Positions 1 through 64,000 of a stretch of 64,000 nt of DNA are shown piece after piece. The notes under the pieces were generated by a model. It saw nothing but the letters and a program-made list of their open reading frames with translations, did not search any database and was not told the origin of the DNA. The position numbers and the translations under genes were made by a program. The DNA comes from Rhododendron vialii (lineage: Eukaryota; Streptophyta; Magnoliopsida; Ericales; Ericaceae). Every line of letters starts with the position of its first letter. Position 1 is the stretch's first letter. The stretch spans positions 4,465,501-4,529,500 of the forward strand of contig NC_080569.1 of assembly GCF_030253575.1 (NCBI RefSeq), in the 5' to 3' direction.

Positions 1-3000
1 TGATTCTCAAACATCATCTGGAGATATTTCCCTTGCTCTTCTATTCGTAGCTGTAGATTTCTTTGAATCTGCCAAAAATAAAGTTACTTATGTATCAGTC
101 GTTGAATACTAGTAGGTGGAAGTGTCCCGCAAAAAAAAAAACTAGTAGGTGGTGTAGTGCTAAACCAGAGTCAAACCAAGCAAACACAAACACACAACAC
201 AGAGAAACACAAGGATTTACGTGGTTCCCCAATAATCGGGTACATCCACGGAGGGGCAGCGGATTCACTATATTTACTGGAGGAGGATTACAACAATCAC
301 TCAGACTCACACAGTATTGCCTCACAATCTACTCGTGTATCACTCTCTTCTCTCTGATTTCTAATACAACACTCTGAACCAAAGGTCTCCATTTATAGCC
401 AGATGAGACCCTGTTCATTTGCCACGGTAGTCTCCCTTCATTTTCCACAAAGGAGGCTGAAGGATACTGGAGGATATCAGTCAAAGATTTGGGAGGCTCC
501 TTGTCTGCTGAGCAAATGCAGGCATGGGTTGGAGCCACAAAAGTCAACAATCTCCACCTTGGCGACAATCATTGAATCAACACTGCCCTCTGCGCCCTTA
601 GGCGCGCACTGCTCGAGAGATGTTGATCAAGTCCAAGCAATGTTGGAACTTGATCCCTGCAACCACTTTGGTGAGCATATCCGCAGGGTTATCTGCAGTC
701 GGAATCTTCTGAAGAAGAACATCCCCTTCCTCTACAATCTCCCTGATGAAATGAAACCGAACATCGATATGCTTGGTGCGGGAATGGTAAACCTGGTTTT
801 TCGCCAAACAGATGGCACTCTGACTGTCACAAAAAACCTCCACGTTTTCTTGAACAATTCCCAAGTCCTCAATCAAACCATGTACCCAAATAGCTTCCTT
901 GAAAGCCTCTGTCACTGCCATATACTCTGCCTCTGTAGTAGACAAAGCCACCGTTGACTGTAACGTTGACCTCAAACTGATTGGCCCTCCAGCAAGTGTA
1001 AACACATACCCTGTAGTCGACCGTCGCTTATCTAGGTCACCAGCATAATCGGAATCCACGTAACCAACCAAATGCTGACCAAGTTTTCTGTTTCTCTCGT
1101 ACTTCAATCCAACATCCACAGTACCCTGAAAATACCGTAGAATCCATTTCACAGCCTGCCAGTGCTCTTTCCCTGGATTGTGCATGTATCGACTGACCAT
1201 GCTAACTGCTTGTGAAATGTCCGGCCTCGTACAAACCATAGCATACATCAAAGCTCCCACAGCATTGGCATAAGGAACCTGAGCCATTTGCTTCCGTTCG
1301 TCTTCCTTCTGCGGCGACATCGATGCACTAAGTTTAAAATGAGCGGCCAAAGGTGTACTGACAGGTTTGGCTTTCCTGTCAATCCCAAATCTCTGCAACA
1401 CTCGCTTCAGATACTGCGTCTGAGTCAAACAAACTGTGCCTTTCGCCTTGTCCCGCTGAATTTCCATGCCGAGTATTTTCTTTGCCTCCCCGAGATCCTT
1501 CATGTCAAACTCCTTACTGAGTTGAGCCTTCAGTCTGTCAATCTCCACCTTGCTCTTACATGCAATCAGCATGTCATCTACATATAAGAGCAAATAGACA
1601 AATGATCCATCCGGGAGTTTGCAGAAGTAAACACAATGGTCAAAGTGACTTCTTGTGTACCCCTGCTCCATCATAAACCGATCGAAGCGCTTGTACCACT
1701 GTCTCGGCGACTGTTTCAACCCATATAGCGACTTCTTCAGTTTACAAGCCCAATTCTCCTTTCCTGCAATTCTGTAACCATCTGGTTGAGCCATATAGAT
1801 CTCCTCATCCAGATCTCTGTGTAGAAAAGCGGTCTTGACATCGAGTTGGGCTAACTCAAGGTCAAACTGTGCTACCAATGCAAGCAAGATCCTGATCGAC
1901 GAATGTTTGACGACAGGGGAGAACACCTCGTTGTAGTCGATCCCCTCTGTCTGTGCGTAACCCTTGGCTACCAATCTTGCTTTGAACCTGACTTTCTCAG
2001 ATCCTGTACCTTCCTTCTTCGCATAAACCCACTTGCAGCCAATAGATTTCTTGCCCTTGGGAAGTTGAACCAAATCCCATGTCTGATTCTTGGAGAGTGA
2101 ACCCATCTCCTCATCCATTGCCTCTTTCCACTTGTTACTATCTGTACACTGCACTGCCTCCCGGTAAGTGGAGGGGACATCATCGTCTGTCACTGGAAGT
2201 GCATAAGCTACTGTATCAGCATATCGAGCAGGTTTCCGGATTTCCCGCCTCGGTCTGCTGGTTGCAATGGATTCTGGCTGCTGTGGTATTTCCTGTAATG
2301 AAGCCTCCTCTTCAATAATGACATCCTGATCAACGGGTTGATCCTCAGGACGGCTGACTGTCTGAACAGTCTTGGCTGGAACAAGGGGAGTCTCAACCTC
2401 CACCTGTTCTGAATGCTCCACCTGCTGCTGGGCATTCGGCTCCACATTCTCCTTGGAAGGAACCTGCTGTAACATAGCAGATTCGTCGAAAGTAACATCC
2501 CTACTTAGAATCACCTTCCTGGACTCGGGACACCAGAGCCTGTATCCCTTAACACCTGAAGTGAAACCCAAGAAAACAGCTTTCTTGGCTCGTGGATCTA
2601 ACTTGGACTCAGTTACATGATAGTAAGCAGAACAACCCCAAACATGTAATGAATCATAATCTGTAACTGGTTTCTCAAACCATACCTCCATCGGAGTTTT
2701 CCCTCCGATTGCTGCTGACGGTAAACGGTTGACAAGATGGGAGGCATATTTGAGAGCCTCACCCCAGAACGCCTTGCTAAGCCCGGCATTTGACAACATG
2801 CACCGAACTTTCTCCACCAAAGTACGATTCATGCGCTCTGCTACTCCATTCTGCTGCGGCGTCCCCGCAACTGTGAAGTGTCTGACTATCCCCTCCTCCC
2901 GACAGACTTGGAGAAAAGGATCTGACTTGTACTCGCCACCGTTATCTGACCTCAGCTTCTTGATTTTCCTTCCTGTCTGCGTCTCCATCATTTTCTTCCA

Positions 3001-6000
3001 CTGAAGGAAGATTGGAAGGACCTCATACTTGTGCCTCATGGTATAAACCCAGACACGTCTGGAGAAATCATCAATAAATGTCACGAACCATCGTTTGCCT
3101 CCCAAAGTTACATTTTTGGTCGGCCCCCAAACATCTGAATGAACATAGTCAAGAATCCCCTCTGTGCGGTGAACTCCAGTGCCAAACTTGACTCGAGTTT
3201 GTTTGCCCAATATACAATGCTCACAGAAGCCAACTTTCCCTGTCTTGGCCCCTTTCAACAAGCCTTGCCTTACTAAACCCTGTAAGGCCTTCTCGCCAGC
3301 ATGCCCTAAACGCATGTGCCATAGCTTGGATGCATCGTCTTCGTCTGAGCTAGTAGTAACGGCCACTCTCCCTGTGACTGTGCAACCGTCTAGGAAATAC
3401 AAGTTTCCTTTTCGGCTACCTTTCAAGACAATGAGCGCCCCTCGAACTATCTTTAGCACTCCACCCATCATCGTAATCTTGTATCCTTTCACATCAAAGG
3501 CTCCAAGCGAAATGAGATTCTTCTTCAAGTCCGGAACATACCGAACGTCTGTTAGCACCCTAAACGTCCCATCATGCAACTTCAAACGGATTGAACCTAT
3601 CCCTTGGACTTTGCAAGCGGTGTTATCGCCTAGCAAAACAACTCCTCCATCGAGATCTTGAAAACTCGAGAACCAGTCCCTGTTGGGACACATGTGGTAG
3701 GAACATCCCGAATCTAGTATCCACTCATCTGAATGGCCAGGTGATGATGAAACTAATAGTGCTGACTCTAGATCATCCTCTGTCTCCTCTGCAACATTTG
3801 CAGCTGGTTGTTTGTTCGGACAATCTTTCTTCCAGTGCCCCTTTTGACGACAAAGGGCACACTCGTCTTTCCCCAATCTTCTCTCTACAGACTTCCCCCT
3901 TGATTTTGAGCGAGACCTCCTTCGCCCTCCACCACCAGTCCTCCTAGTGTCGGTTCTGCCTCTTGTTGTCAAAGCTGATGCGGACGGGTCACGGTGAGCT
4001 TGCTGATCCCTCTTCCGTACCTCGTTATTCATCAAAGCATTTGAAACGTCATTAAACTTGATTTCTTCTTTACCGTACAATAAAGTAGTAGTCAAATGAT
4101 CATAAGTATCAGGCAATGAATTTAACAACAGTAAAGCTTTATCCTCATCTTCTATGGAAACGTCTAGATTTTGCAAATCAGACAAAATCTTATTGAAATT
4201 GTTCAAGTGTTGGTTCATAGTCGTACCTTGCACGTACTGGAACCCGTAGAGCTTCTTTTTGAGATACAACCGATTCTCAATACTCTTCGTCATGTACTTG
4301 TTTTCCAATTTCTCCCATAGCTCTTTAGCTAACGTTTCCTTCATCACGAAGTATTTCTGATCCTTCGTAAGACAAAGTCTGATGGTGCCACAAGCTTGGC
4401 GATTAAGCTTTATCCAATCCTTGTCTGAAATGTCGTTCGGCCTCTCCTCTAACGTAATATCCAACTCCTGTTGATACAGAACATCCAAAACTTCGCATTG
4501 CCACATGCCGAAGTTACTTGTTCCGTCAAATTTCTCCACCTCGAACTTAGCATTGGAAACCGTATTCCTTTGCCCATAACTGCTCGAAGTGACCTTGGGA
4601 TGCTCGGTATTCTTCTCTGCAGATGAAGAAACTTCCGAGGTCTCCTTAAACTCTTCTTCCGCCATTAGAACTCCTTAAACTCCACCCACGTGAATATCCG
4701 GTGCACAAAAACACCAAAAAACGGCGCTTTTTAGCCAACCAACGGACAAAACACCAATGTCAGAGCTGAGTTGCGGAAAACGGAGTGCGGCGTTGGATCC
4801 GGAACGTCGAGAATAGTCAGGAACGACTACTCACTTGCGCAAATCAGAGTTGAAATGGCTCCGAAATCGCAAAATAACACCTTCTGGAATATTCCTTGGA
4901 TCAGAGAATATTCCCTCTGGTTAGGACTGACTGGACCTGCTGACTCAGCAATAAATGCTGACTGGGCGCTAATGACTGGGCCTTTTTGCTGATGTGGCGC
5001 ACACCTGGCGCTGACGTGGAAAGACACGTGGCTGAATACGTGGCTGATGACTCAGCCTCTCTGATGATGTGGCAGATGACGTGTCTGCTGACTGGGTGAC
5101 ACGTGGCGTGCTGCCTGGCGTAACCTTCTGGCCTTCTGAAGCTTCTGGATCGATGATGTCAAGCTGACATCAGCGTCCCTAGGTGAGCCAGTAGCACTGG
5201 ATAATTTCCCCTGGCTTTGACTAGTCAAAAACCAGCACCTGGTTTTCCTCCTTACAGATATTAAAGTAAAAAAAAACTCTGTTTTCTGAAAAGATAAAAA
5301 AAACAGATCCGGCGAGCAGCAGCTTCTTTCACGCTCAACCGTCGAACGGAGCGTGTGACCTCGTTGTTACTCCGTTTCCGATGGGTCTTGGTGCGTTGGA
5401 ATCGTCTCGCAAGGACGCACAAGACTCAGTGGTCAAACGGATTCTTGGATCAAAAAAAAACGTGGCTCTGTGACTCGGACAGAACACGGACTGAGAAGCA
5501 GAGTCGGAAACTATGGTGGTTTTTGTGTTCTTGGTTCTACGCTACGAGCTCTGATACCAATTGTAGTGCTAAACCAGAGTCAAACCAAGCAAACACAAAC
5601 ACACAACACAGAGAAACACAAGGATTTACGTGGTTCCTCAATAATCGGGTACATCCACGGAGGGGCAGCGGATTCACTATATTTACTGGAGGAGGATTAC
5701 AACAATCACTCAGACTCACACAGTATTGCCTCACAATCTACTCGTGTATCACTCTCTTCTCTCTGATTTCTAATACAACACTCTGAACCAAAGGTCTCCA
5801 TTTATAGCCAGATGAGACCCTGTTCATTTGCCACGGTAGTCTCCCTTCATTTTCCACAAAGGAGGCTGAAGGATACTGGAGGATATCAGTCAAAGATTTG
5901 GGAGGCTCCTTGTCTGCTGAGCAAATGCAGGCATGGGTTGGAGCCACAAAAGTCAACAGGTGGCTACGAAACAATGTCATGGTTGCTAGAGCACTCAGCC

Positions 6001-9000
6001 ACGAATCATTTTCTCGTCAAGTTTCTAGAGACATCTGTTGAACATGTGAAAATGCCACGAGATGTACAGTTCGGATTTCAGAAACTTTGCTCTCAGAGGC
6101 ATATTAAGGGGATTTTCGGTTGTTGCACTTTAGGGGAGATAATGAGATTTATGTACCATCTCGATAGAATCTCTAGCCTTTGAACTGAACCAATTAAAAC
6201 ATCTCAGGCCTTCTAGGGATTGCTAATGTAGGTCCAGTAAACAAACCAACCATGATTAGCAAGCGTTCTCACGTAACTTGTTTCCCCTTTAGCATCATTT
6301 AATTGCGCGCTTCCCTTCTACTTCAGCTCTTACTAATATAATGCTTCTAAAACTGGACTAGACTCTCCAGCAAGCCATCATAAGTATGTAGATGACAATA
6401 ATAACAATCCGTAAATGAGTCAATGACCAAGAGACACTCGACAATTATGAGGAAAGAAAACCCAAACAAAGTCTTGACACTTTTTAAGCCACATATACCA
6501 TCTGAAAACTACAAAAGTTTATACATAAGAAAACGATACTAGAAGACAATAGATTACGTCCAACAACTCACTTCAGATTACAACCCCCAAAAAAAGTGGT
6601 GCTCAAACGGGAGGTGTCTGCGTCTAGGGATGGCTAACCGAAGGGGCACCAGAGTGAAATAAAAAAAGGAATTGATGAACTCAGAACTGGTTTAAGACAA
6701 GAAAGAGGAATGGGAGAAGTAAAATAATATGCCACCCGGGAACAGAAAAACTATTCAAGGTAAACTGTTACTTGATTTCTACAATTTCATTGGTTGTTTG
6801 AGCCTTAACTATTAAGCTGGCAGAACAAAAATTAACAGCTGATTTTCAAGGCATGCATCAAACTGCTACCAAACTGGTCGGCAGAATTCCAATAGGTGAA
6901 GATCAAGTGAAACTGAACTCGATTTGTGTAAAGACAAATCCATACCTCTAACTGTTCATGCAGGTGTTTCTGGAGCTCCATCTGTAACCGTAGTGCTTCA
7001 GTGATCTCAGTACCCCTGTTCACATAAATGTCAGAGGTCTGAATAAATTCGCACGAGTAACTTACTGTATATTGAAACAGCCTGACACAAAATATCATCT
7101 AGTAGGCTAAAATGCACCAAGAAGTTAAAATATTGAGACGAATGAAACAGTAAATGACTGACAATGGTGAAATAAATTTTAGAAGCTACAAAGCACCACC
7201 AATATCGACAAAGAAAGTTGTGTATAACTGCTTAAGCTAGAATAAAACTTTCTTGCAAGAACTCGTTCTGTTTTTCAATCATCACCTCTAACCCCCACCA
7301 TTATCATGTCCCATAGCAAACATTTTCCTTCTATGTTGTCACTTACTACGAATTAAAAAGCAGGCGTATTCACTTACCGAAGCTACAATGGGTGAAGGAC
7401 TGTCTCTGAAAACATAGATTAATCACAACTACCAAATCCCAAAATTCTAAAGAGAAGTATGATATTCAATCAAATCCCTTCAAGCAAAGAAGAAAAGGCT
7501 GAGTTGCATGGAAGATAGATGTTTAGTAACTTCCAAGTCAATCTACTTACGTTTTCAAGTCCGGAGATGACACTTCCTGAATTGGAGCCAACTTTTTCTC
7601 TGAAGATCCTGCAAATCAACAAATGACCAGCTTCATGAGGAATTGTGACATGGATGTCTTTCACTTATTATCCCCCATAGAAGGCAAACAAGTGACATAT
7701 AAACACCAAAGGGGAAATTAAACTAAGCACAGCATGGACGGCTCTAGGATTTGAGTTAGCGGTGACAAAACGATAGAAATTTTTTGGGATATGAGACTCT
7801 AAAAACTGAAGTTTTTTAGCATAGTTAGAAATTTATTCGGCCTGGTTTGTGTTATTTTGTTGAGCTATACTATCTAATTATTATAAGTGAATTTTATCCA
7901 TTCTGACTTTGTAGTTTGTACTACTATCCATGCACACAATACTAAAGAAAAATCAAATTACATATCAAAAAATATAAAAAATTCAGCACATTTTCTGAAC
8001 CCGGGGGGTTTGCTTGAACCCCCTCGTTTAATGGTGGAGCCGCCCATGAAGCACAGAAATTGGAGTTGAAAAAACAAAAAGAAATATGACATGAGTTGAC
8101 TGGACTCCTGAAGACAATTACAATTCCATAATAGAATACTAAGAGTTGAGCATCACAGGATGTACAGAACCATAATAAGCATCAATGTGAACGACACTAA
8201 CATTGATAGCGATCATAGATATCATATAAAAATAGTACATTGAAGATCTACAGTTTACAGAACAAGGAAAGCAAACTCAGATAACAGGAGAAGGAGAATC
8301 ACAGTGAATTGAGAATCTATGCCACTGACAGATGTTTCAGAAAAACAGAAGTTGAGCCAAAAAACACAAACTTCTTGAAATGACACTTACAATTGCAACA
8401 CCAAATAATTTTTTTCCCCCGGAAGAAACACTGGATAATACAAAGGAATTGAACACTGAAAAGATCAAACAGCTGAGACTTGTAACAAGCAACAATTAAA
8501 TTGTTCTAACACAAAAATCCAAAAGAAGCAAAAAGAAACTACACAAAGAAACTAACAGACCTTCACTACTAAATTTATCATCCAAGATTCTAAGTGAAGG
8601 CATTAAAGTTTGTCTTTATTTTAAGAGCTCGCTTGTATAAGTACAGAGTGGAGTTGATGTTTCACTCATCTCGTGTTGTTCCAACTTCCAATGCTTCAAC
8701 AGCAAAGCATACAACATAATAACCATAGTTGTGCTGAAATCACAGAAGAAATGGAATTCCTCCGCAAATGCAAAGAAGCTTATGCAGTACAAGTTCATAA
8801 ACAGAAAAGAATATCAGGAAGCTATTCTTATTCACCTTCTGATGACTCTGGTCTGTATCTAGCTGTTCTATACTTCTGCAATTAAGCAAGAAAATTCACC
8901 AGATGAATGGTGCAAATAACAGTACAAAGTAAATACAAAATGGAAAAAATAGATGAAACACACCTGCAGGTGGCTCTTCACATGATAAATTGTCAAACGT

Positions 9001-10306
9001 TCAACTTTCATGTCATTCAGTACACACTTAGGAGTAGCTTCTGTAGTTCACAGTGAACAAGTTAATGGAAATGGGTCACCCCACTTTTAGAGGCAAATGA
9101 GATTAAGAAGTAGTCTAAGGCAAAAAGCTGTACACACTTTCACTGCCACCAAGCTTAGTGACTGCTTCAACAAAGGCCTCATGGAGTTCAGGCGTCCAAC
9201 GCATGCGCTGTTTAGTTGATGCACCACTTGGTGAGGATGTGGAGTTATTAGCACAAGAAGACTGCCGAGAAGAAGTTGGAATCTGGAGTACTTGGGGATG
9301 GGGTGCCAAAAAATTTGTAGATGATTCCATCACCTGATAAGCCATCTACAATCAAAGAAAAACAGAAAGCAATACAAATCATACAAGCTATCACACGTTT
9401 CCCGTTTAATTTGGAAACAAAGAGTGAAAAGATTAGGAAATTGAGATGTTTTCCCGCAGGGTTTTGATTTTCGCACACCCCACTTTTCTAACTACATGAC
9501 TTTTGTCTTTATATATCTGAGTTTACATCATTACCCCTTCATAGGTGAAAACTGAACAAATAAAAGGGCAATATTGCAAATTCAGATGAATGAAGACAAA
9601 AAAAAAAGGGAGTGCATGTATCAAAAATGGAAGTGTACAGAGTAGTGTTTAGTGAGGAAATTGCAACCTTTGGCTGTGAATCTTCAACATTGCTGTCAAC
9701 AAAAAGGTCATTCCAATTAGCAGTCAAGGAATCATCATCATGGATTAGCTCGTCCGCCCAATCTTGCCAGTCGTTTCTCTTACTATGGTCTTCACTTGGG
9801 ATGGGACAACCACCATTATTGTTTCTTCCAACTTGATTGATCTTGATAGGGGTATTTACGGGATAGTTGAAAAAGTCTGGTAACGGATCAGTGAACCAGG
9901 AACCACTGTTGTTCAATGGTGTAGATTGGAGCATTCTAGGATGACAAGTGGTTAGCGGCAATAATGCCCCAGCATTTGATAACTGAGAAAGATAGGCAGA
10001 CTTTCTTGAATGGTTTTCAGGAGGTCCAACAGAAGGAAAATGAAAATCATTGGAAAATCCGGACGTCGATGAGAACATATGACCAACAACCCCATTGTTA
10101 GAGGGTAAAGAAGAGTAAAAAGCCATAGGATTTGCATTAAGTTCCCTTTGCATGTAAAGTAGCAGAGAATCAGGCAAGCTAGGATATTTCTCTTCAAAGG
10201 TGGAAAGATGAACTGGTAAAGGTGATGAAAGTGCACCAAAAGCACCAGGGGTGCTGAGTTGGCTTGCACTTGATCCCTGAATATACAAAGAGCGGTGTGC
10301 TTCCAT
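1..10306 (-). CDS. PHR1-like: PHR1-like MYB-CC transcription factor, 3' end outside window
   Basis: Nuclear MYB-CC factor of the phosphate starvation response family, whose members bind P1BS-type sites. Exons reconstructed on the minus strand are 9668-10306, 9138-9345, 8964-9040, 8836-8875, 7551-7608, 6946-7015 and 1-68, the last running off the window. All junctions are GT-AG and in phase, giving 386 codons. Start: ATG at 10306, which opens a PHR1-like N-terminus. Visible are the conserved WADELIHDDD and NWNDL motifs near residue 195, the MYB domain from MRWTPELHEAFVEAV to VKSHLQKYR (about 261-311), and the coiled coil with LRLQMELQKHLHEQLE followed by IQRNLQLRIEEQGKYLQMM. The exon at 1-68 lies across a copia insertion from its upstream neighbour. 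Several MYB residues differ from the family consensus (see findings). An apparent small exon at 7376-7408 was left out because it breaks the frame. Family assignment is firm; exact orthology is not. Confidence 0.9.
148..152. repeat. Target site duplication of the copia element, left copy
   Basis: GGTGG directly before the left LTR; the same five bases occur at 5959-5963 directly after the right LTR. Confidence 0.9.
153..549 (-). repeat. 3' LTR of the copia element
   Basis: 397 bp with TG...CA ends on the minus strand. Identical to 5562-5958 except for a C at 229 where the other copy has T on the plus strand. Plus-strand ORFs inside it are incidental. Confidence 0.96.
550..565 (-). other. Polypurine tract of the copia element
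   Basis: Minus strand reads CCAAGGTGGAGAT directly before the 3' LTR, a common copia plus-strand primer form. Confidence 0.75.
598..4665 (-). CDS. Copia Gag-Pol polyprotein, intact
   Basis: A 1355-residue single reading frame, the usual length for a Tnt1/Tork-type copia element. In order: Gag (about 40-230); a basic arginine-rich stretch (about 235-265); a CCHC zinc knuckle (C-X2-C-X4-H-X4-C, about 269-282); an aspartic protease with LDSG near 318; a GAG-pre-integrase HHCC region (about 450-485); an integrase core with D511, D574 and E610 (the D-E spacing of 35 fits DD35E); reverse transcriptase with YVDD; and RNase H with a VDSDYAGD motif and a terminal CDSQSAI/KHID part. No stop or frameshift was found. 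The gene order protease-integrase-RT places it in copia. It makes virus-like particles and cDNA for its own transposition; expression is unknown. Confidence 0.96.
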   Translation of the reverse strand: MAEEEFKETSEVSSSAEKNTEHPKVTSSSYGQRNTVSNAKFEVEKFDGTSNFGMWQCEVLDVLYQQELDITLEERPNDISDKDWIKLNRQACGTIRLCLTKDQKYFVMKETLAKELWEKLENKYMTKSIENRLYLKKKLYGFQYVQGTTMNQHLNNFNKILSDLQNLDVSIEDEDKALLLLNSLPDTYDHLTTTLLYGKEEIKFNDVSNALMNNEVRKRDQQAHRDPSASALTTRGRTDTRRTGGGGRRRSRSKSRGKSVERRLGKDECALCRQKGHWKKDCPNKQPAANVAEETEDDLESALLVSSSPGHSDEWILDSGCSYHMCPNRDWFSSFQDLDGGVVLLGDNTACKVQGIGSIRLKLHDGTFRVLTDVRYVPDLKKNLISLGAFDVKGYKITMMGGVLKIVRGALIVLKGSRKGNLYFLDGCTVTGRVAVTTSSDEDDASKLWHMRLGHAGEKALQGLVRQGLLKGAKTGKVGFCEHCILGKQTRVKFGTGVHRTEGILDYVHSDVWGPTKNVTLGGKRWFVTFIDDFSRRVWVYTMRHKYEVLPIFLQWKKMMETQTGRKIKKLRSDNGGEYKSDPFLQVCREEGIVRHFTVAGTPQQNGVAERMNRTLVEKVRCMLSNAGLSKAFWGEALKYASHLVNRLPSAAIGGKTPMEVWFEKPVTDYDSLHVWGCSAYYHVTESKLDPRAKKAVFLGFTSGVKGYRLWCPESRKVILSRDVTFDESAMLQQVPSKENVEPNAQQQVEHSEQVEVETPLVPAKTVQTVSRPEDQPVDQDVIIEEEASLQEIPQQPESIATSRPRREIRKPARYADTVAYALPVTDDDVPSTYREAVQCTDSNKWKEAMDEEMGSLSKNQTWDLVQLPKGKKSIGCKWVYAKKEGTGSEKVRFKARLVAKGYAQTEGIDYNEVFSPVVKHSSIRILLALVAQFDLELAQLDVKTAFLHRDLDEEIYMAQPDGYRIAGKENWACKLKKSLYGLKQSPRQWYKRFDRFMMEQGYTRSHFDHCVYFCKLPDGSFVYLLLYVDDMLIACKSKVEIDRLKAQLSKEFDMKDLGEAKKILGMEIQRDKAKGTVCLTQTQYLKRVLQRFGIDRKAKPVSTPLAAHFKLSASMSPQKEDERKQMAQVPYANAVGALMYAMVCTRPDISQAVSMVSRYMHNPGKEHWQAVKWILRYFQGTVDVGLKYERNRKLGQHLVGYVDSDYAGDLDKRRSTTGYVFTLAGGPISLRSTLQSTVALSTTEAEYMAVTEAFKEAIWVHGLIEDLGIVQENVEVFCDSQSAICLAKNQVYHSRTKHIDVRFHFIREIVEEGDVLLQKIPTADNPADMLTKVVAGIKFQHCLDLINISRAVRA
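4666..5547 (-). promoter_or_regulatory. Copia untranslated leader with ACGT-core cluster
   Basis: About 880 bp of non-coding leader between the primer site and the Gag ATG. The part at 4930-5110 is rich in repeats built on GCTGA and ACGTGGC. It includes two perfect CACGTG G-boxes (5025-5030 and 5100-5105) and further TGACGTG and TACGTGG copies. No open frame of note. Confidence 0.6.
5548..5559 (-). other. Primer binding site of the copia element
   Basis: Minus strand reads TGGTATCAGAGC, the usual complement of the initiator tRNA-Met 3' end, two bases from the 5' LTR. Confidence 0.9.
5562..5958 (-). repeat. 5' LTR of the copia element
   Basis: 397 bp, the upstream LTR with respect to the polyprotein, so it should hold the element's promoter and also polyadenylation signals. 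The transcript of the host gene meets this LTR first. Confidence 0.96.
5959..5963. repeat. Target site duplication of the copia element, right copy
   Basis: GGTGG, matching 148-152. Confidence 0.9.
5964..6945. other. Intron sequence of the PHR1-like gene flanking the copia element
   Basis: Together with 69-147 this is the pre-insertion intron, about 1.06 kb. No coding exon was seen. The plus-strand frame ending at 6183 starts in the LTR and has no recognisable protein. Confidence 0.6.
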
Positions 10307-14324: not shown

Positions 14325-15014
14325 CTGATTTTCCACGTAAAAGAAGATCAGCCTGATTTTCCCCGTAAATGAAAAAGATTGGACTGATTTTCCACGTAAA
14401 TGATCTTCTTGAATAAAACTACGAAATGAGGAATTCCAAACTTCCTTACAGCATTTCCAGTCCTTAACCTCAAATTAAGAGAGACATGAATTTCTACTCA
14501 AACACTGCAAGAGTATGTGTTTGTTCATCGGAGTGTTTCATACCAAATGACGGTTTTTTTTTTTTGAAAATTTTCACTCAAATGGGGCCGGAGATGCTCT
14601 TACAAGTTTTAAGTGGAACCCATAATGACCCACTAATACGAAAGTGAAACAAGATGAATTGATAGAGGTGCACACAAATTGATCCGGACACTCATTTAAA
14701 AAAAAAAAAGTGAATGGATAGAAGCTGAATGAGAGGGGAGAGGGTCATGTCCAGTGTGGTTCGGACACTCATTTTCAAAAAAAACGTCATTCGGTACGAA
14801 ACACTCTGATGAGCAAACACAATACTCTCTCTCGCAGTATTTGAGTAGAAATTTATGTGTCTCTTAATTTGAGGTTAAGGGCTGTAAATGCTATAAGGAA
14901 GTTTGGAACTCCTCATTCCGTAGTTTTCATCAAGAAGATCATTTACGTGGAGAATCAGCCTGATCCTTCATTTACGTGGAAAATCAGCCTGATCCTTCAT
15001 TTACGTGGAAAATC
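14325..15014. repeat. Large inverted repeat (about 240-bp arms)
   Basis: The left arm at about 14325-14575 is the reverse complement of about 14765-15014 with scattered mismatches. Shared blocks include TTCCACGTAAATGATCTTCT, CCTTAACCTCAAATTAAGAG and GAGTGTTTC. The spacer of about 190 bp holds a second inverted piece: GCTTCTATCCATTCAC near 14293 pairs with GTGAATGGATAGAAGC near 14710. A 27-bp unit with TTTACGTGGAAAATCAG is tandemly repeated at the outer end of each arm. Confidence 0.75.
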
Positions 15015-15300
15015 AGTGCATTTGCAAAGGAACGGCACAATTAAATTTAAAAAAGTAAACCGTTCATTGATTATGTTATGATTATGTAGTTAATTAACAT
15101 ATCTTCTGACGTATGATACTGTATCTTCTGACATCCGATCAAATTGGACGACTTTCTCAACAAGAGCTACAAGATACACGGTCCTAATAATAATCGCCAC
15201 GAATTCCGAATGAGCTGACTGCGACCCAGAATTCGGATCAAACGTGACGAATGGATACTCGATCGGGGTCTGTCATTGGGGAGCAAGGGCCGAGGAAGCT
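15012..15300. repeat. Direct repeat, copy 2, flanking a foldback insert
   Basis: Diverged copy of 13945-14225. The two copies bracket the large inverted repeat at about 14290-15011. Confidence 0.7.
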
Positions 15301-16429: not shown

Positions 16430-16625
16430 CTTTAGTTTAAAATACTTTGTTTATGGTCCTCGAAAAACTAAGCTCAATCAGTCATCGGTAAGGGCGTTTA
16501 CAAAACATCCAACTTCGTTCCAAAATTCAGGCCTGAATTAACAAAGTTGGATGTTTTGTATACGCCCTTACCAATACCAGATCGAGCTAATTTTTTCTAA
16601 GGATCATAAACAAAGAATTTGGACA
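16430..16625. repeat. Near-loopless palindrome (hairpin MITE)
   Basis: Arms of about 95 bp meet at TTCAGGCCTGAA (16529-16540). Shared blocks include TTTGTTTATG, GTAAGGGCGT and ACAAAACATCCAACTT. Downstream of the RPL23 stop codon. Confidence 0.75.
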
Positions 16626-16987: not shown

Positions 16988-21114
<4,127 letters not shown>

Positions 21115-21299: not shown

Positions 21300-23083
21300 A
21301 ATTACCTAAATAGCCTCCGATCAAATGCCCATTGATCTTTGCATCATCGCTCCGGACTCGCACTCTCAATTATCGCACCCACGAGTATTGGTTGTCTTCA
21401 GAAGTTTTCGAAAGAAGTTTTCACGTTTGCAGTCGGGCTCCCTGAAGCCGCATTTGCACCCAAGCGCATGTGACTTAGGACTTGAATCACTTCGTCATGA
21501 GGTTGTTCAAACTTTACTCGAAATCTTGTATTAAAAAAAAAATGCCTTTACTTTAAAATTTCATTAGCGTTTAAAAAATGTGCTTTAGCTCAAGCATTTG
21601 TTGAGTCGATTTTCAATAATCTTTTATTATAGCCTTATAGGTGAGTTCAAGGAACCAAGAGTGTAGCCTATGATTGTTACGCCAAGTAATACTCCTAATT
21701 CGTAGAAAACTGGTTTAAAAAAAAAAAAGAGACACTTTTATTAAGTTGCCTATGATTATTACGCCAAGTACTACTCCTAATTCGTAGAAAACTGGTTAAA
21801 AAAAAAAAAAAGATACATTTTTATTAAGTTTCATATAGGTAATGGATATTTATAGCGTGTACAACAAAGTCTAATTAGTTTTTTCTTTCAATCAATAGAA
21901 GAGATTATTGCACCATATTTGAAGTAAATAGTATCAACTCGGGACACTGCATCAACTGTGAGAGTCCACGGATAATCAAGTCCAATAACTCAACCAATAT
22001 AAGAAATATGCCCATCATAGAGAAGAAACGAAGAAAGAAAGGAAAAGCTCTTATGAGGGAATAACACTTATAGGCAGGTAGAGAGATTTGAACTCCTAGT
22101 AAGATACAAGACTCTTGGCCAACGGGCAATACGAAAAACCAAAAAAACCGACCAAAGTAATCGGTTTGGTTTGGGGGAGAATTTCAGTTTGGTTCGGTTT
22201 TTATTTATAGAAATTTATTTTTTCGGTTCGGTTTTTGGTTTTACTGAGATTTCAACCGGAAAACCGAACCGAACCGATTACTTCCGTTTTACCAAAAAAT
22301 AAAATTTTGGATCATAATTTTATGTATTTTGTAGTGTGTTAAGACATATAAATCTTGCGTTTTAAGCCTAAATGGGCCCAATATATGTGTGAATCATTAC
22401 TTTGTACCATTTTTTGAGACCTAAAAGAGGCTTATAACTTAAAATTGAAAACCGAATGAAATCGTCCGAAAACCGAATGAACCGAAACCGAAAAAATAAA
22501 TATTCCTTTTGGTCGATTTTGATAGGTGAATATTGAAAACCAAATCGATATTTCGGTTGCTAAAATTCCAAAAAATCGAACCCAACGAACTGATATCGCC
22601 ACTATGGCCAACTAAGCTAGAATAATTGTTCAATAAAGTCTAATCAGTTAAACCATCTATTGTGTGTTGGTTTTTCACTTTTTTGCAAGTTGGATCAAGT
22701 TTGCTGAGATGATAAATTCATCTTTTTATTGAAACTGGTAAAACATTATGTAAAATCATGAATGTCCATTTAAAAGCCACAACGTAATCTTTATTTTATT
22801 CTCTGCAAGACACAGTAAAATTATTCTCCTCGTAAAATTATGTCTGTCTATTTGACACAAATATTACTCCGGATCTATCTATGCTGAAACTTTGAGAATT
22901 TCGAAGAAGTCACTTTTTCGCAGCTTGATTTCAAGAATTGAACTACGATGGATGCGTGGAGCAAACTTACCAATTAACCTGTCTAAACTTTTGGAGCTGA
23001 GCTACTTGGCAAGTTGGCATCCCACTTGCTTGTGAACCTGAACTCGATGCTCGGAACTGTGTGCTGGAAACTAACCGGAGAAA
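21300..23083. other. Intergenic region between RPL23 and the GS-HQR gene (divergent promoters)
   Basis: Contains an 82-bp tandem duplication starting at 21666 and 21748 (GCCTATGATT...TTTTATTAAGTT). At about 22140-22600 there is a segment rich in GGTTCGGTTT and its complement AAACCGAACC, arranged as an inverted repeat and probably a degenerate DNA element. No gene was recognised. Confidence 0.5.
21666..21830. repeat. 82-bp tandem duplication
   Basis: Two copies starting at 21666 and 21748, each ending in an A-rich run and TTTTATTAAG, with few mismatches. Confidence 0.85.
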
Positions 23084-25758
23084 ATGCCCTGCGCCGCCTC
23101 CCTCCTCACCTCTCCCCCACCCTTCCCCACCGCCACCACCAAAACCCATTTCAAATCACGCCACTTTATCCCTAGAATGTCCATAAACCAAAACCAACCA
23201 AACCCAACCCCAAACCCTAACCCCCTAACATCCCTCACCAAACTCCTGTGGGGCCCCTCCCTCCCACCCCAGCTCCTCATCTCCACCGTCCGCTCCACCT
23301 GGTCCGCCGCCTGGCACCTCATGATGTCCCAGCTCGCCCCCTCCGACCCCACCGGCCGTTACACCCGACCCACCTCCCAATTCCGCTCCAATTCCCAAAT
23401 TACCCTCCAAAACAAACCAGGCGCCCTCCACCTCTACGTGGGCCTGCCCTGCCCCTGGGCCCACCGGACCCTCGTTGTCCGGGCCCTCAAGGGCCTGGAA
23501 ACCGCCGTGCCAGTCTCGGTTGCGTCGCCGGGGGTGGACGGGTCGTGGGAGTTCCAGGGCAGGGCTATACCGGACGGGGATAGAGTTGTCCCGGGCTTGG
23601 ACGGTGCAAATGGGTGTAAAACCGTGAGAGAGGTTTATAAGCTTCGGAGAGGGGGGTACAATGGCCGGTCCACGGTACCGATGCTTTGGGATGTGGAGAG
23701 CAAGGAGGTTGTGTGTAATGAGAGTTATGACATAATTGAATTGTTCAATTCGGGGTTGAATGGGTTGGCAAGCAATCCTGATTTGGATCTTTCACCGCCA
23801 CCGTTGAAGAGAAAGATTGAGGAGTGGAATCGGATTATATACCCAAATGTTAACAATGGTGTCTATAGGTATTATGCCAATCATATCGAAATTCCTGGTT
23901 CAAATTATATTGCATTGGGATTTTGTTAGTGAAGTTGTATGTACTCTTGTATAGAAATACGGTTGTATTACTTGCATAGGTGCTTGAATACCCACAATCC
24001 CAATCATGATCGAAATTGGGTTGAAATTATATTGCATTATGATTGAAATGGTGAAACTGTGCTTGTTAATTGCATTGAATTATGGTCGCATATAGCTGAA
24101 TATTCAAAATGCCATTGGAGTGGCCCGAGTGGGGAAATTCAGGTTCCCGTTTTGATTGTCTTAGTGAAATTGTATGTCGAAATTGTAAAAGAATTTATGT
24201 TTTTATGGTGGTGTATTCGTGCAGGTGTGGGTTTGCTCAGAGTCAAGAAGCATATGATTCCGCGGTAAATGAGTTGTTTAGCACATTGGACACGGTGGAT
24301 GATCACTTGGGCAATTCTAGGTACTTGTGTGGAGATGTGTTGACACTAGCAGATGTATGCCTGTTTACAACTTTGATTAGGTTTGATCTTGTGTATAATG
24401 TTCTGTTCAAATGCACAAAGCGAAAGCTGATCGAATATCCAAACCTTCATGCCTATATGCGCGATATATACCAGGTAATAACTCCTTCTGTGACTAGTAT
24501 ATGCTTGTAGAATGGGGTGGGTTTAGCTAGTATTGTACATTTTTTGTTCTCAAAGGGTGTGCAACCGTGTGGCATATATTTTTTAAGCTAACATTTCTAT
24601 CCGCTCCAGTATCCATTAGACTTGTACACAACAACAACAACATAACATAACCCATCTAGTCCCCAATCATTGGGGGTATGAACGGGGATGATTGGAGACA
24701 GACCTAACATTTGGCAATATATGCACAAAGTGGCAGCTCTCAGAATACCACTAAAACAGTGGCCCTTCTAAACCTCCAAAAACCGAGGAGCTACAAGGAC
24801 GTTTTGTTGTAAAACCATGCCCTCAAATCAAAGTCAAATGGCATCAGAGAGGGCAGGCCTAGAGACCCAAATCAATTTATGTGCACATTATCATGCTTCC
24901 TCCATTAGACTTGTCCCATATGAAATAGCGAATCTAACTTGCGTTGGAAAAAGGCTTTTTTGTTTTCCCTTTTCTTCATAAATAGAGAGGGGGCCCTATT
25001 TAGATTCTCAATTTGTCATGGTTGACTATCTGGGGGGCTAGATGAACTTTGAGCGTGATCCTTGAAAGAACTTGCTACTGCTTTTGTTTCTGACGATTGA
25101 AAATCAAGTAGATGACTGTGTTCTTTCTGAATTGGTGAATTTCAATTCTTCCTCCTATGCCTGATTGGTCTGGGACTCTTGTGTCTCTATTTTGTATGGC
25201 ATAAAGATCGGGTTTGGAGAATCCTCGCCATGAAGTATGAACTAATCCTGTTCCAAATTCAGCGGAAGAATTTGTCACTCGTATTGACAGATTGAGAGAA
25301 ACCTTCTCAGTTGGCTCATTTATACTATAAGAGTCTCTCTCTCTTCTTTTTTGTGTGTGTTTGAAGTTGGCTTTACAGTCTAATCGAGCAAAATCCTGTA
25401 TCATCTTGATTGAAATAAAAAGAAAAACCAACTGTTGCTGTTATTGATGTTATTGATTGGATGTGGCAGTGGATCCATTGTAGTCGCTTTTTTACATGAT
25501 GCGTTGCTCTTATTTACCCGAATTCTGCGCTGCATGGCTAATTTTGCATTTTCATTTCCCATACAGATTCCAAAGGTCGCGGCAACTTGCAATTTTGGAG
25601 CAATTATGGATGGTTACTATAAGATTCTTTTCCCGCTGAATCCAAGTAGCATTCGACCTGTCATGCCTTCTGGTTGCGAGCATGAGTTCCTCTCTCAACC
25701 TCACAATAGGACATCTCTGTCATCGGTAGATAAAAATGCACAGGTTCCTGTTTTATGA
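23084..25758 (+). CDS. Glutathionyl-hydroquinone reductase (xi-class GST), probably plastid-targeted
   Basis: Reduces glutathionyl-hydroquinones using glutathione, by known chemistry of the PcpF/YqjG family. Exons are 23084-23868, 24225-24474 and 25567-25758, GT-AG and in phase, giving 408 residues. The thioredoxin-fold part carries the CPWA motif with catalytic Cys at about 123 (GLPCPWAHR). VNNGVYR spans the first junction into [11 protein letters not shown]. The C-terminal helical domain has [18 protein letters not shown] and the family ending [13 protein letters not shown]. Residues 1-30, rich in Ser, Thr and Pro, look like a transit peptide. A second Met at position 32 could be an alternative start without it. 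Exon 1 is clearly more GC-rich than the rest. Strong family match. Confidence 0.92.
24627..24870. mobile_element. Retroposon-like fragment in a GS-HQR intron
   Basis: Contains ACAACAACAACATAACATAACCC (split by short insertions), CCCCAATCATTGGGG, and TATATGCACAAAGTGGCAGC, which are blocks seen in plant SINE/LINE tails. Ends are not defined. Confidence 0.35.
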
Positions 25759-26857: not shown

Positions 26858-29800
26858 TCATCTTCGATTCCCTGTGGATCTAGATCCTGTGCCAGAGAAC
26901 AAATCATAATTAGCAGCAGCTGAATCAGAGAGAATTTTGTGATGGGAGTGTATTAACTAGGCAAAACTGAATCATCTATACCCTTAAGAATCTATATTTA
27001 GTCAAAACTGAATCACGTATTCCCTTGGGAGCTTGTTGGAAAGGACGGCTAAAATATTAAGATTTACTGAGGACAATGACAAGACAAGTATGAAATGGGA
27101 AGTGGTATAGAAAAGAAAACCGACAGACTGAGTGCAAACATGTTTATACTGATAATCTAAAAAGATCTCTCAGACAAGCTACAATGAGAACATTGTATCA
27201 TTTGAATGACAAAATAGATCCAACTTTTCTATGACACATTCAAACTAATAAACCCAAATTGCTGTAACCAATAAAAACTAAGCAAAAATTCACAACATGT
27301 AAGCACTTACTACTCGCACGTTTGATGTTTCGGCAATACTTGCTGCCACAACGGCACTTAAAAGCCTTGACCGGGTGATCGTGATCATCGAAATCAATAC
27401 CATAATCCTGCAAACACGTGATTTACTATCTCAGTAAAGGAAGTAAATACAAATCCTCACATGTTTTATTCACATGAAGCCGCCAAAATAAGTTTAAAAT
27501 GGTTAGCGTAAATAATTACTTTTTTGAGTTGACAAGCAACTTTAGACACTTTGTTGTAAGCAAACAAAATTAATATAAAACATGCACAAAATATATTTTG
27601 GGGATGCACGCACAAGATCGATTGAATGTACAAGGGAAACGTGCACGCACAGCAGATGATGTTGTATGTATAAACTTTATCATAGCAGACAGTCTAGTTA
27701 AGCAAGATTTAGAGTCAGAGAGCGCCTAATCTTTGTGGGACTGCGACCATTAGTCATAACCCACTCTTTAATTTGGTCATGCTCATCTCATAGACTGCAT
27801 GAAACCCACTTACCCATGTAAGTTCCTCCATAGCATCCACTTTTCTGGTTGTGAAGAAGGCGAGCTGCATGGAGGTAAAACATAAACTATATTAGATTTC
27901 CCAACATAAATGACCGGGCCAGCCACAAGTTATTTCCAAAGACAAAATGAAGCAGTGAAGTGTCTGGGGTTATATACATGATAATAGTGATGGTCAGGGG
28001 TCTCCACCTCCACGGGTATCTCAACCAAGGTTGAATCAAAACATCTGGCAGAATAAGAAAATAAACTATTTAATAACTACAACCAAATGAGGGTTTAACT
28101 TGATAAAGATAAAGAAGAGTAGAATATAAGAAGAAAAAAAGTTAGTGTTCTAGTCTAAATGCAAGCGCAAATTATGATAGACCTCTAGGCATCTTTAATA
28201 TACATGTAACATATACATTACAGCTAAAGGATAAAGTCTCAGTAAAACAAAATAGGCATTGACAGAGGAGTAACTAATGCGGGTCTTTCAGACAGAAAAG
28301 ATAAAGGCACAAAAGATTTTGCCCTCTAAAGAACTTACCTGTGATTGATAAACCTTGCAACATTCCCATAATTTGTTGCATCCAAACAGAGAGCTTCTTC
28401 ATCCTTTAAAACTACTTCTGAACCCCAGTCAGCATCAAGCAGCACAGGGTATGCATGCTCCTCATTTTTGCTTTGTGAGACTCTCTCATAGAGTTCAGCA
28501 TTGGTTAAAATTTCCCCAACGTATTCACAAACAAAGGCACCTTTTGGGAGCTCCTCTAGGGTACGGAGACCCCATCCTTTTCCTCCAGGAGTCATAAACA
28601 CCTGAACATGGGGAAAGGAGGACAGTGTACCAATCATAGCCCATGAAATGTAAACAGACATGAGATATTACTCAAGCAAGGTTTGCAGAATATGAAAAGA
28701 TCCCAAGCCTCTCTTATGAAGAGAACCCTTACCGAGATGATACTTTGTGCAAAACTATTTCATAGAGTTTGAAGTTAAATAGTAGTAATATGAAAAACAA
28801 TGTACCTCCATTAGCAACTGGTGAAAAAAACTTAAGATACTAGGAGCAAATTCTCACCTGCAACTTGCGGTTTATGCCGCGTTGTACCACCCGATTACCA
28901 CACAGTTTACTGCAGCCACATTTCCACCAGCATTCTTTTATGAACTTCCTAACTAAGTGACCCTTGCAAGGTTCTGGAAGATCATCATTTTTGGATCTTT
29001 CCAGCGGGCATTCCTTACAATAAAACATGCAGTGCTTTTGAGGATCGCGATTCATCGAAATACACTCTTCCAAAAAGTCCTCTTTGACCAAGCCCTCTAA
29101 GGTGTACGCAAAATCACCACCAGTTTCATTTGCACAAGCGCAGGGTGTTGGTGGTGATAAACAATTCCCAAAACAATTTGAACAACAATTTTCTCCAATC
29201 CGAGCGAGAGAGAAATTTACATATCCGTTCTGAAAAAGCACATTTTGTGGTATATACTGGAAAGACGGTGGATACTCCTTGTTAACATCATTTACCAATG
29301 GTATTACAACGTTTTCTTGTCCTTTTGCTATATCATTAACATCTCGAAGAGACATTTTTCGCCGCTGAACCACCCCCAGACTATGAGAATTTTCATGGTC
29401 AAGCCCATTCTGTTCATTTTCCATATCAATTTCACAGGTGTTCCCAGTGTAATTCTTATCTTTTTTTGTGCAGTCATCCATCCCATTGGATGATGGTGGA
29501 AGTATTGGAACTCCAGAACAAGCTTCTTCAGGTGCACAGTTGATACTGATTGATCCGTTAGAAGGACCAAATTGCTTGCCTCTTGTTCCCATATCCAGTG
29601 CTTTAGATTCTTTTGACAAAACACCAGCTGGAGTTACGTCTATGGTTTCCTGTTATACATGAAAAAAGTCAGTACCAAGTTCCTGAAAGCACCCCCACAT
29701 AACTTTCATTAGTTTCCTCACATTGGCCCAACAGTTAAGATAATCCAAGACAACGATCCTCAACCATTTTGAGAAACACATCAATACTAGGCACAAGGAA

Positions 29801-39842: not shown

Positions 39843-40299
39843 CTCCATAAAGGTAAAACACTATTGCAGCCCCAAATGACTTTGACCAAACAAGAATGAG
39901 AAAGTAATAAGTGTTTGTATTTCATGAGACAAGTTACACGTCCGAACTCCACGGAGGTCAAACGCTTTAAATTTTTTGGCCATATGAGGGTTTGCCTAGT
40001 TGTTAAATTCAGAAGTTTCAAAATTGGTCGAGATGAGCGGAAGCTGGCCGGATATGTTGCACTAATTAAAGGGAAAATCACTAGTGCTAAAACTAATCTC
40101 TTTCACATTAATTAAAGGGGAAGCCACCCACAAACCAGAAGGGTACAAAACCCTGGTTACAAAAGGGCCACAACCCCACCGAAAACATCTCTCCCTGTCT
40201 CATTTTCCCCGTCTCTAAAACCCACCAAATCCAAATCCCCCCTTCCAAATCCTTCCAAAAAAACAGTCATGGTTTGATTAGAATATTCAACACCCCAAG

Positions 40300-41798
40300 A
40301 TGGGTCTTTCATTTCCACCATCTCCTGCCACCCTCCTCTCTCTCCTCCTCCTCTCGCTCCTCGCCACCTCCGTTTCCTCCTCCGACTACACGACCCTCGT
40401 GTACAAAGGCTGCGCGGACCAAAAATTCCAAGACCCAACCGGGGTTTACTCCCAAACCCTCAAAGCCCTCTTCAAAACCCTCGTCTCCCAGTCATCCGCT
40501 GCCAAGTTCAACAAAACCACCTCCGGCGAAGCCCAGTCGGCCATCACCGGACTGTTCCAGTGCAGGGGCGACCTCTCCAACGACGACTGCAGCAGCTGCG
40601 TCAGCAAAATCCCAGACCTGTCGAGAAAACTCTGCGACAGCACAATTGCTGCCAGGTTCCAGCTCACCGGGTGTTACATGAGGTACGAGGTCTCTGGGTT
40701 CAACCAGGTTTCCGGGACTGAGTTGCTGTACAAGGTGTGCGGGTCGACTCGGGCGAGCGGGGCCGGGTTCGAGGACCGGCTGGGCTCGGCCCTCGGGGAG
40801 GTGGAGAAAGGGGTGGCCGGCGGCGGGAATGGGTTTTACACGGGGAGTTATCAGTCGGTGTTCGTGTTGGGCCAGTGCGAGGGGGATTTGGGGAGTGGGG
40901 ACTGTGTTGATTGTGTGAAGAGCGCTGTCGATAGAGCCAAAAGCGACTGTGGGACGTCTATTTCTGGCCAAGTTTACCTCCAAATGTGTTATATTAGCTA
41001 TACTTATTACCCAAATGGAGTGCCCAGCAAATCACCATCAGGTAAATCACACAATTCACAGATTATTAGTCTTTTCTGGGAGATCGTGCAATCTTTCAAT
41101 TGTTTTGTAGGGTATAATTTGTAATGTTTTAATGTGGTTTTGAATCATTAATTTGATTCATCGAACATGATCCATATTGCGTATGAAAATATTGCTAATT
41201 AAAAAATATATAACTAATTTTCTATTTGGTTACCCTTCAAATGAGGCCAAATTTACCTTCAACAGTGTTATATAACACTTGTTACCCAAATGGAGTGCCC
41301 AGCAAGTCACCATCAGGTAAATCACACAGTGCACATATTATATGTATTACTCCCGTGACTCCCGTCCCAATTCGTTAGTCTTTTTTTCTTTAGAGTTATT
41401 CATGTGATATGTGAATTGCTGATTCCTTGTGACTCAAGACGTTTTACGCGATTTTGAAAGCTTTATTCAGTAAAATTAATTGGGATCTATCAAAGAAGAT
41501 TCGTATTGCACGTGGAAAGTATTATTAATTAGAAAATTTAACCAATTTTCTCTTGCGTTTGAATAGAACGAGGGACTAACAAATGGTAACGGAACAAGTA
41601 TGTGTCTTCTTTATGTATGTCTCTGTTTTGTTGATTGCCAAGTGTTTAACTGGGTGTGTAGGAGGAGGAACAAAGGGAAATACCCAAAAGACAGTGGCTA
41701 TTGTTGTGGGAGTGCTGGCGGGGTTTGGGCTTGGGATTGCCTGTTTAATGGTTCTAAAATCAGCTTGCAAGAAGCGAGAAGGTAAGTATGGAGGATGA
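40300..41798 (+). CDS. PDLP-like: Plasmodesmata-located-type protein with two DUF26 domains
   Basis: Type I membrane protein of the plant cysteine-rich repeat group; PDLPs act at plasmodesmata in cell-to-cell permeability. Exons are 40300-41041 and 41662-41798, GT-AG, in phase, giving 292 residues, within the PDLP range. Signal peptide at 1-28 (leucine-rich core LLSLLLLSLLATS). DUF26-1 has the C-X8-C-X2-C motif at C88, C97, C100; DUF26-2 has it at C193, C202, C205. A transmembrane helix follows (about 258-279, TVAIVVGVLAGFGLGIACLM), then a short basic tail. No kinase domain, so it is not a full CRK receptor. The tail is uncertain: a strong donor (GAAG|GTAAGT) at 41781 could splice to a further exon instead of reading to TGA at 41796-41798. 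Exon 1 is GC-rich, unlike its surroundings. Confidence 0.85.
41260..41340 (+). repeat. Partial duplication of the PDLP exon 1 end and donor site
   Basis: Repeats TTACCCAAATGGAGTGCCCA and the following CATCAG|GTAAATCACACA of 41009-41053, so the intron holds a second copy of the exon end with its splice donor. Confidence 0.85.
41352..41600. mobile_element. Possible Stowaway-like MITE in the PDLP intron
   Basis: The left part CTCCCGTCCCAATTCGTTAGTC pairs imperfectly with the inverse of GACTAACAAATGGTAACGGA near 41572-41595, with TA nearby on both sides. Ends are uncertain. Confidence 0.4.
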
Positions 41799-63338: not shown

Positions 63339-63648
63339 TGTTAAAGAAATAGAATTCCACATTACTTGGGAGTGGAATGGGTGATCACTTAATAACATCT
63401 GGGACCTCTCCACTCATTGCCAATTGGTTTTGAGATGGATATAAAGTTTCCACATGGTATCAGAGCGGGGACCGTTCCACCTCACATTTTAAAAATTAAC
63501 AATTCACACCCCACGATGACAGATCAGCAAAAAGGCTGCACGATGATAGGACCCAAAAGTGGTCACACGTGACAAACCTCAAATGCGGCTGCACATGAGG
63601 GGGGATGTTAAGGAAATAGAATCCCACATTGCTTGGGGTGGAATGGGC
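63339..63648 (+). mobile_element. TRIM retrotransposon, second LTR truncated
   Basis: LTR of 116 bp at 63339-63454 (TGTTAAAG...TTCCACA), then a tRNA-Met-type primer site TGGTATCAGAGCGGGG (63455-63470), a non-coding internal part of about 135 bp, a polypurine tract (GAGGGGGGA), and the first about 43 bp of the second LTR starting at 63606. It then jumps to inverted TRIM sequence at 63649. Confidence 0.8.
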
Positions 63649-64000
63649 CCCCGCTCTGATACCATATAGAAACTTTATGTCCATTTCAAAACCAATTGGC
63701 AATGAGTGATTGGCAATGAGTGGAGAGGTCCCAGATGTTATTAAGTGATCATCCATTCCACTTTCAAGCAATGTGGGATTCTATTTCCTTAACATCTCCC
63801 CTCACGTGAAACCGCATTTGAGGTCTGTCACGTGTGGCCACTTTTGGGTCCTATCATCGTGAAGCCTTTTTGCTGGTCTGTCATCGTGGGGTGTGCATTG
63901 TTAATTTTTAAAATGTGGGGTGGAACAGGCCCCGCTCTGATACTATGTGGAAACTTTATATCCATCTCAAAATCAATTGGCAATGAGTGGAGAGGTCCCA
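63649..64000 (-). mobile_element. Inverted TRIM copy, cut by the window end
   Basis: Minus-strand TRIM sequence. In plus coordinates: primer site complement (63650-63663), a full LTR (about 63665-63794, with a 14-bp internal duplication TGATTGGCAATGAG), polypurine complement, internal region, another primer site complement (about 63930-63945), and the start of another LTR (63946 onward). So two LTR-primer-site units follow each other in tandem. Confidence 0.75.

Follow-up and report, generated by a model that had tools for sequence, protein, structure and literature searches.

A recently inserted copia retrotransposon between the coiled-coil exons of a predicted PHR1-type gene in Rhododendron vialii

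The stretch of DNA analysed here, hereafter the window, comprises 64,000 nucleotides of the Rhododendron vialii genome (contig NC_080569.1, positions 4,465,501 to 4,529,500) and opens on a gene of the minus strand which, judging from its translated exons, would encode a PHR1-type transcription factor of the MYB-CC class. Its model runs through seven exons from 10306 to 1 (Table 1), which were picked by eye from the translations with PHR1 as a guide. All of them are open, with GT/AG ends and consistent phases, and they add up to 386 residues with a C terminus left open at the window end. A microexon of 28 bases (7405-7378), also considered by eye, was rejected because it would throw exon 6 out of frame. 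Within the 386-residue model Pfam recognizes Myb_DNA-binding and Myb_CC_LHEQLE, that is, a MYB domain of the GARP type and, after it, the LHEQLE coiled coil by which MYB-CC proteins of the PHR1 type are known. Among relatives of solved structure, OsPHR2 (E = 6.1e-54) and AtPHR1 (E = 1.3e-28, for a coiled-coil chain) match best, which agrees with the PHR1-like identity proposed in an earlier note on this DNA.

The coiled coil of AtPHR1 offers a detailed reference for this comparison. Ried and colleagues mapped the interface residues L319, I333 and L337 as well as L317, L327 and I341, and the SPX-contact residues K325, H328 and R335, whereas R340, unlike R335, had no effect (PMC7810988). Numbers of AtPHR1 correspond to those of the host protein minus 32, an offset set by hand which agrees with the residue types in PMC7810988. 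In the alignment, all nine residues of the SPX-binding KHR motif and the interface are kept in the host protein, and the stretch encoded by exon 7 equals AtPHR1 at every one of the 21 aligned residues. The likeness to AtPHR1 and OsPHR2 thus extends over the MYB domain, the coiled coil and the KHR and interface residues, whereas the MYB part encoded by exon 3 differs from both by four substitutions. C, N, D and R are found there in place of the G, K, L/I and G/N of the five displayed chains, which stand for only two proteins (AtPHR1 and OsPHR2), and the Asp occupies a position that is hydrophobic in all five. These four differences may stem from sequencing error, from drift or from a variant that is real, and the gene copy itself may be drifting. 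Intron 4 of the gene carries a smaller insertion of 316 bases (7733-8048), flanked by the 8-base duplication AAGCACAG (span 7725-8056) and with inverted ends matching at 16 of 24 positions, a non-autonomous DNA transposon that is hAT-like by the length of its duplication.

Most of intron 6 is made up of a copia LTR retrotransposon lying in the orientation of the gene. Its LTRs, each of 397 bases with TG...CA ends, differ by a single mismatch (229 C versus 5638 T), the target duplication GGTGG stands on both sides, and next to the 5′ LTR there is a primer-binding site that we take to be of the initiator-Met-tRNA type. The open frame of 1358 codons shows the Pfam order Retrotran_gag_2 (residues 81-225), Pol_BBD, gag_pre-integrs, rve (512-606), SH3_retrovirus and RVT_2 (863-1109). 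A gag of copia type and an integrase upstream of the reverse transcriptase in the polyprotein, together with the near-identical pair of LTRs, their terminal TG...CA and the 5-base duplication, assign the element to the copia group. Catalytic motifs along the frame matched nine of ten patterns, in order, the patterns having been written with the translation in view and not blind; the tenth, for the integrase zinc finger, had the wrong spacing, and the gag_pre-integrs match covers that region. RNase H was recognized through its motifs, no RNase H family being among the Pfam matches, and the two frames of the 5′ leader gave no Pfam match at E up to 0.01. A search of viral contigs with a piece of the reverse transcriptase returned one stretch that fitted a pattern, and no relative was confirmed. 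Anatomy and open frame make the element structurally complete, an open frame being no proof of activity.

Table 1. Coordinates of the host gene model, its sixth intron and the copia element within the window.
Feature	Position	Strand	Remarks
Exon 1, coding part	9668..10306	-	donor GTTGCA, weak by eye
Exon 2, MYB domain part one	9138..9345	-	
Exon 3, MYB domain part two	8964..9040	-	
Exon 4	8836..8875	-	
Exon 5	7551..7608	-	
Exon 6, coiled coil first half	6946..7015	-	residues matching AtPHR1 L317, L319, L327 (interface) and K325, H328 (SPX contact)
Intron 6	69..6945	-	6877 bases, phase 0, GT/AG, contains copia element; in-frame stop 6834-6832
Exon 7, coiled coil second half	1..68	-	cut by window end; residues matching AtPHR1 I333, L337, I341 (interface) and R335 (KHR motif)
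Copia LTR retrotransposon	153..5958	-	5806 bases; strand is that of the host gene
5′ LTR	5562..5958	-	first LTR reached by gene transcription; TATAAA 5806-5801, AATATA 5683-5678
3′ LTR	153..549	-	identical to 5′ LTR at 396 of 397 bases
Target-site duplication GGTGG, left	148..152		
Target-site duplication GGTGG, right	5959..5963		
Primer-binding site TGGTATCAGAGC	5548..5559	-	2 bases from 5′ LTR
Gag-pol open frame	598..4674	-	1358 codons; first ATG at 4665

The earlier note had described the locus correctly when it placed a complete copia element with 5-bp duplications, and with LTRs unlike at one of 397 bases, between two coiled-coil exons of matching phase and in the same orientation as the gene. 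Once the element and one duplication are subtracted, intron 6 measures 1066 bases, and the insertion falls between the first and the second half of the coiled coil. Beside the insertion there is a 12-base direct repeat, ACTAGTAGGTGG (108-119 and 141-152), around 21 bases that end in an A-run, an arrangement resembling a tiny target-primed retroposition, which is the mechanism that the A-run suggests. The window holds 23 such close 12-base repeats, this pair included, so they are not rare and the repeat, taken by itself, carries little weight as evidence. The second ACTAGTAGGTGG copy ends in the GGTGG that the copia insertion duplicated.

The insertion is young. One difference in 397 bases corresponds to 97 ky at 1.3e-8 per site per year, with exact Poisson 95% limits from 2.5 ky to 0.54 My; these limits move to 4.6 ky and 1.0 My at 7e-9, and to 13 ky and 2.8 My at the slow rate of 2.5e-9. 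The age of about 0.1 My given previously therefore stands as a recent insertion and not as a precise date, the figure being soft because it rests on one substitution. Gene conversion between the LTRs may offer another source of their near-identity.

As to where the RNA could end, plant polyadenylation signals are loose. AATAAA is absent from the sense strand throughout the 6877 bases of the intron, and of the seven hexamers sought in the LTRs one AATATA per LTR was the sole match besides the TATA box. Reading on past exon 6, the ribosome would add 37 intron-coded residues before the in-frame stop, which lies 874 bases before the element and goes unmentioned in the earlier note, and the predicted shortened protein would have 401 residues, 364 of PHR and these 37. 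As the stop precedes the element, the same protein would result wherever in the element the RNA ended, provided that no further splicing takes place within the intron. Of the three SPX-contact residues such a product would keep two, and of the six mapped oligomer contacts it would lack three. Mutants of the PHR1 interface were monomeric and their high-affinity DNA binding was gone (PMC7810988). With half of the oligomerising helix missing, and with the interface mutants behaving in this way, a loss or weakening of function seems more probable for the predicted protein than a novel activity. An MBP fusion of AtPHR1 that binds DNA as a monomer has been reported, however (cited in PMC7810988), and the cut protein could accordingly retain some DNA binding; its SPX control may also be altered.

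Several cases in Arabidopsis help to weigh how often such a product could arise. Intronic elements are often tolerated there, as 206 of 241 intragenic TEs lie in introns, and only about 17% of the intragenic TEs measure at least 1 kb, which the authors read as a purge of full-length copies (PMC4417168). When heterochromatin is lost at intronic TEs, prematurely polyadenylated transcripts increase, as found by 3′ RACE at four loci (PMC4417168; see also PMC10241880). The closest parallel that we have considered is COPIA-R7 in intron 1 of RPP7, likewise an intronic copia, with its 5′ LTR placed after the early and ahead of the later exons, where it can terminate transcripts; EDM2 and H3K9me2 restrain this ending (PMC7529245). 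The two cases differ in that RPP7 yields a short non-coding RNA and the influence of EDM2 and H3K9me2 was measured, whereas the element described here splits the coding region of a gene from another family and is known from sequence alone. Insertions of ONSEN (ATCOPIA78) are comparable as recent full-length copia elements in genes, some of them in introns, but they were experimentally induced and tracked by long-read cDNA, unlike the insertion in the PHR gene (PMC12112155). Most of them are spliced out and some end transcripts; at seven expressed insertions, new starts or new ends led to partial exonization, and the major isoform of RAV2 is the short one that ends in ONSEN (PMC12112155). The exonization at these seven insertions, the RAV2 isoform and the scarcity of TEs of at least 1 kb argue against an easy tolerance, and premature polyadenylation in the LTR of the PHR gene would be plausible by precedent.

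With these precedents in mind, we consider it probable that the gene is still spliced in the ordinary way. The copia element inserted recently, in the orientation of the gene, into intron 6 of a PHR1-type MYB-CC gene, and methylation would keep it silent; splicing would remove the enlarged intron from most transcripts, the gene would continue to give full-length PHR protein, and a minor share of transcripts would end in the intron or in the 5′ LTR and give the protein of 364 + 37 residues, probably weak or inactive. A much stronger effect, in which the 5′ LTR would end most transcripts and the allele would leave little full-length PHR, appears unlikely to us. The absence of AATAAA from the sense strand of the intron speaks against it, as a weak point where signals are so loose, and so does the behaviour of the tested Arabidopsis intronic TEs, at which short forms rose on loss of silencing marks or their readers (PMC4417168, PMC7529245); a strong loss of function nevertheless finds its arguments in the common orientation of element and gene, in the copia 5′ LTRs that end transcripts at RPP7 and RPP4 (PMC7529245), in the slight over-representation of Copia among TE-derived alternative last exons of Arabidopsis (PMC10241880) and in the example of RAV2. 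It would be quite exceptional, in our estimation, for the locus to act as a silencing-dependent switch on the PHR factor, in the manner of COPIA-R7 at RPP7, where loss of methylation would let the 5′ LTR end the transcript and yield a PHR short of one KHR residue and of half its coiled coil, with altered SPX control or partner pairing.

Other readings concern the gene itself. Were it a decaying or dispensable paralogue, the insertion would be of little consequence; the four unusual residues of exon 3 could be taken in this sense, but the seven modelled exons are open, in phase and bounded by GT/AG, and all nine residues mapped in the coiled coil are conserved, for which reasons we find decay improbable. 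It would be most surprising if the exon at 1-68 came from another gene copy or from an assembly join. The window ends within this exon and its continuation lies outside, which leaves room for such a doubt, and a separate pseudogene copy was one of two findings that the earlier note had named as fatal to its reading. Against it stand the phase-0 join, followed right after the exon 6 boundary by the 21 residues identical to AtPHR1, the exact target duplication and the lack of any second copy of exons 6 and 7 in the window, where each of 11 twenty-base probes was found once and none of the self-matches listed (at least 40 bases, E up to 1e-4) overlaps either exon. The in-phase join, the identity and the single copy thus assign exon 1-68 to the host gene, as far as the window shows.

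Ordinary splicing with a silenced element, which we prefer, would make this locus one more plant gene with a complete intronic retrotransposon, and this is the likelier outcome. If transcript ends do change, it would provide a natural allele of recent origin in which transposon silencing is tied to phosphate signalling, and whose predicted product lends itself to tests of single residues. Insertions of this sort are commonplace in plant genomes, though this one splits a dimerisation region. The host gene differs from AtPHR1 and OsPHR2, with which it was compared at the protein level, also by the element of 5.8 kb in the intron that divides the coiled coil. In the literature on PHR genes and retrotransposon insertion, the titles and abstract openings among the matches listed name no retrotransposon in a PHR gene, which is no proof of absence.

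Other features are scattered along the window. Two H/ACA snoRNAs of Rfam, snoR137 (18035-18169) and snoR100 (24800-24907), are encoded on the minus strand; both are plant families and, like the gene families described above, point to a plant as the source of the DNA. Among the neighbouring genes there are one for a GST_N_2 protein (23075-23929, plus), another for a Pre-SET protein (28840-29652, minus), presumably SUVR-like, and a third with two Stress-antifung (DUF26) stretches (40282-41124, plus). Self-complementary DNA occurs at 14325-15016, as two arms of about 250 bases at 86%, at 16440-16620 (181 bases, 82%) and at 63400-64000 (about 600 bases, 86%), three stretches that are perhaps MITE-type or foldback elements.
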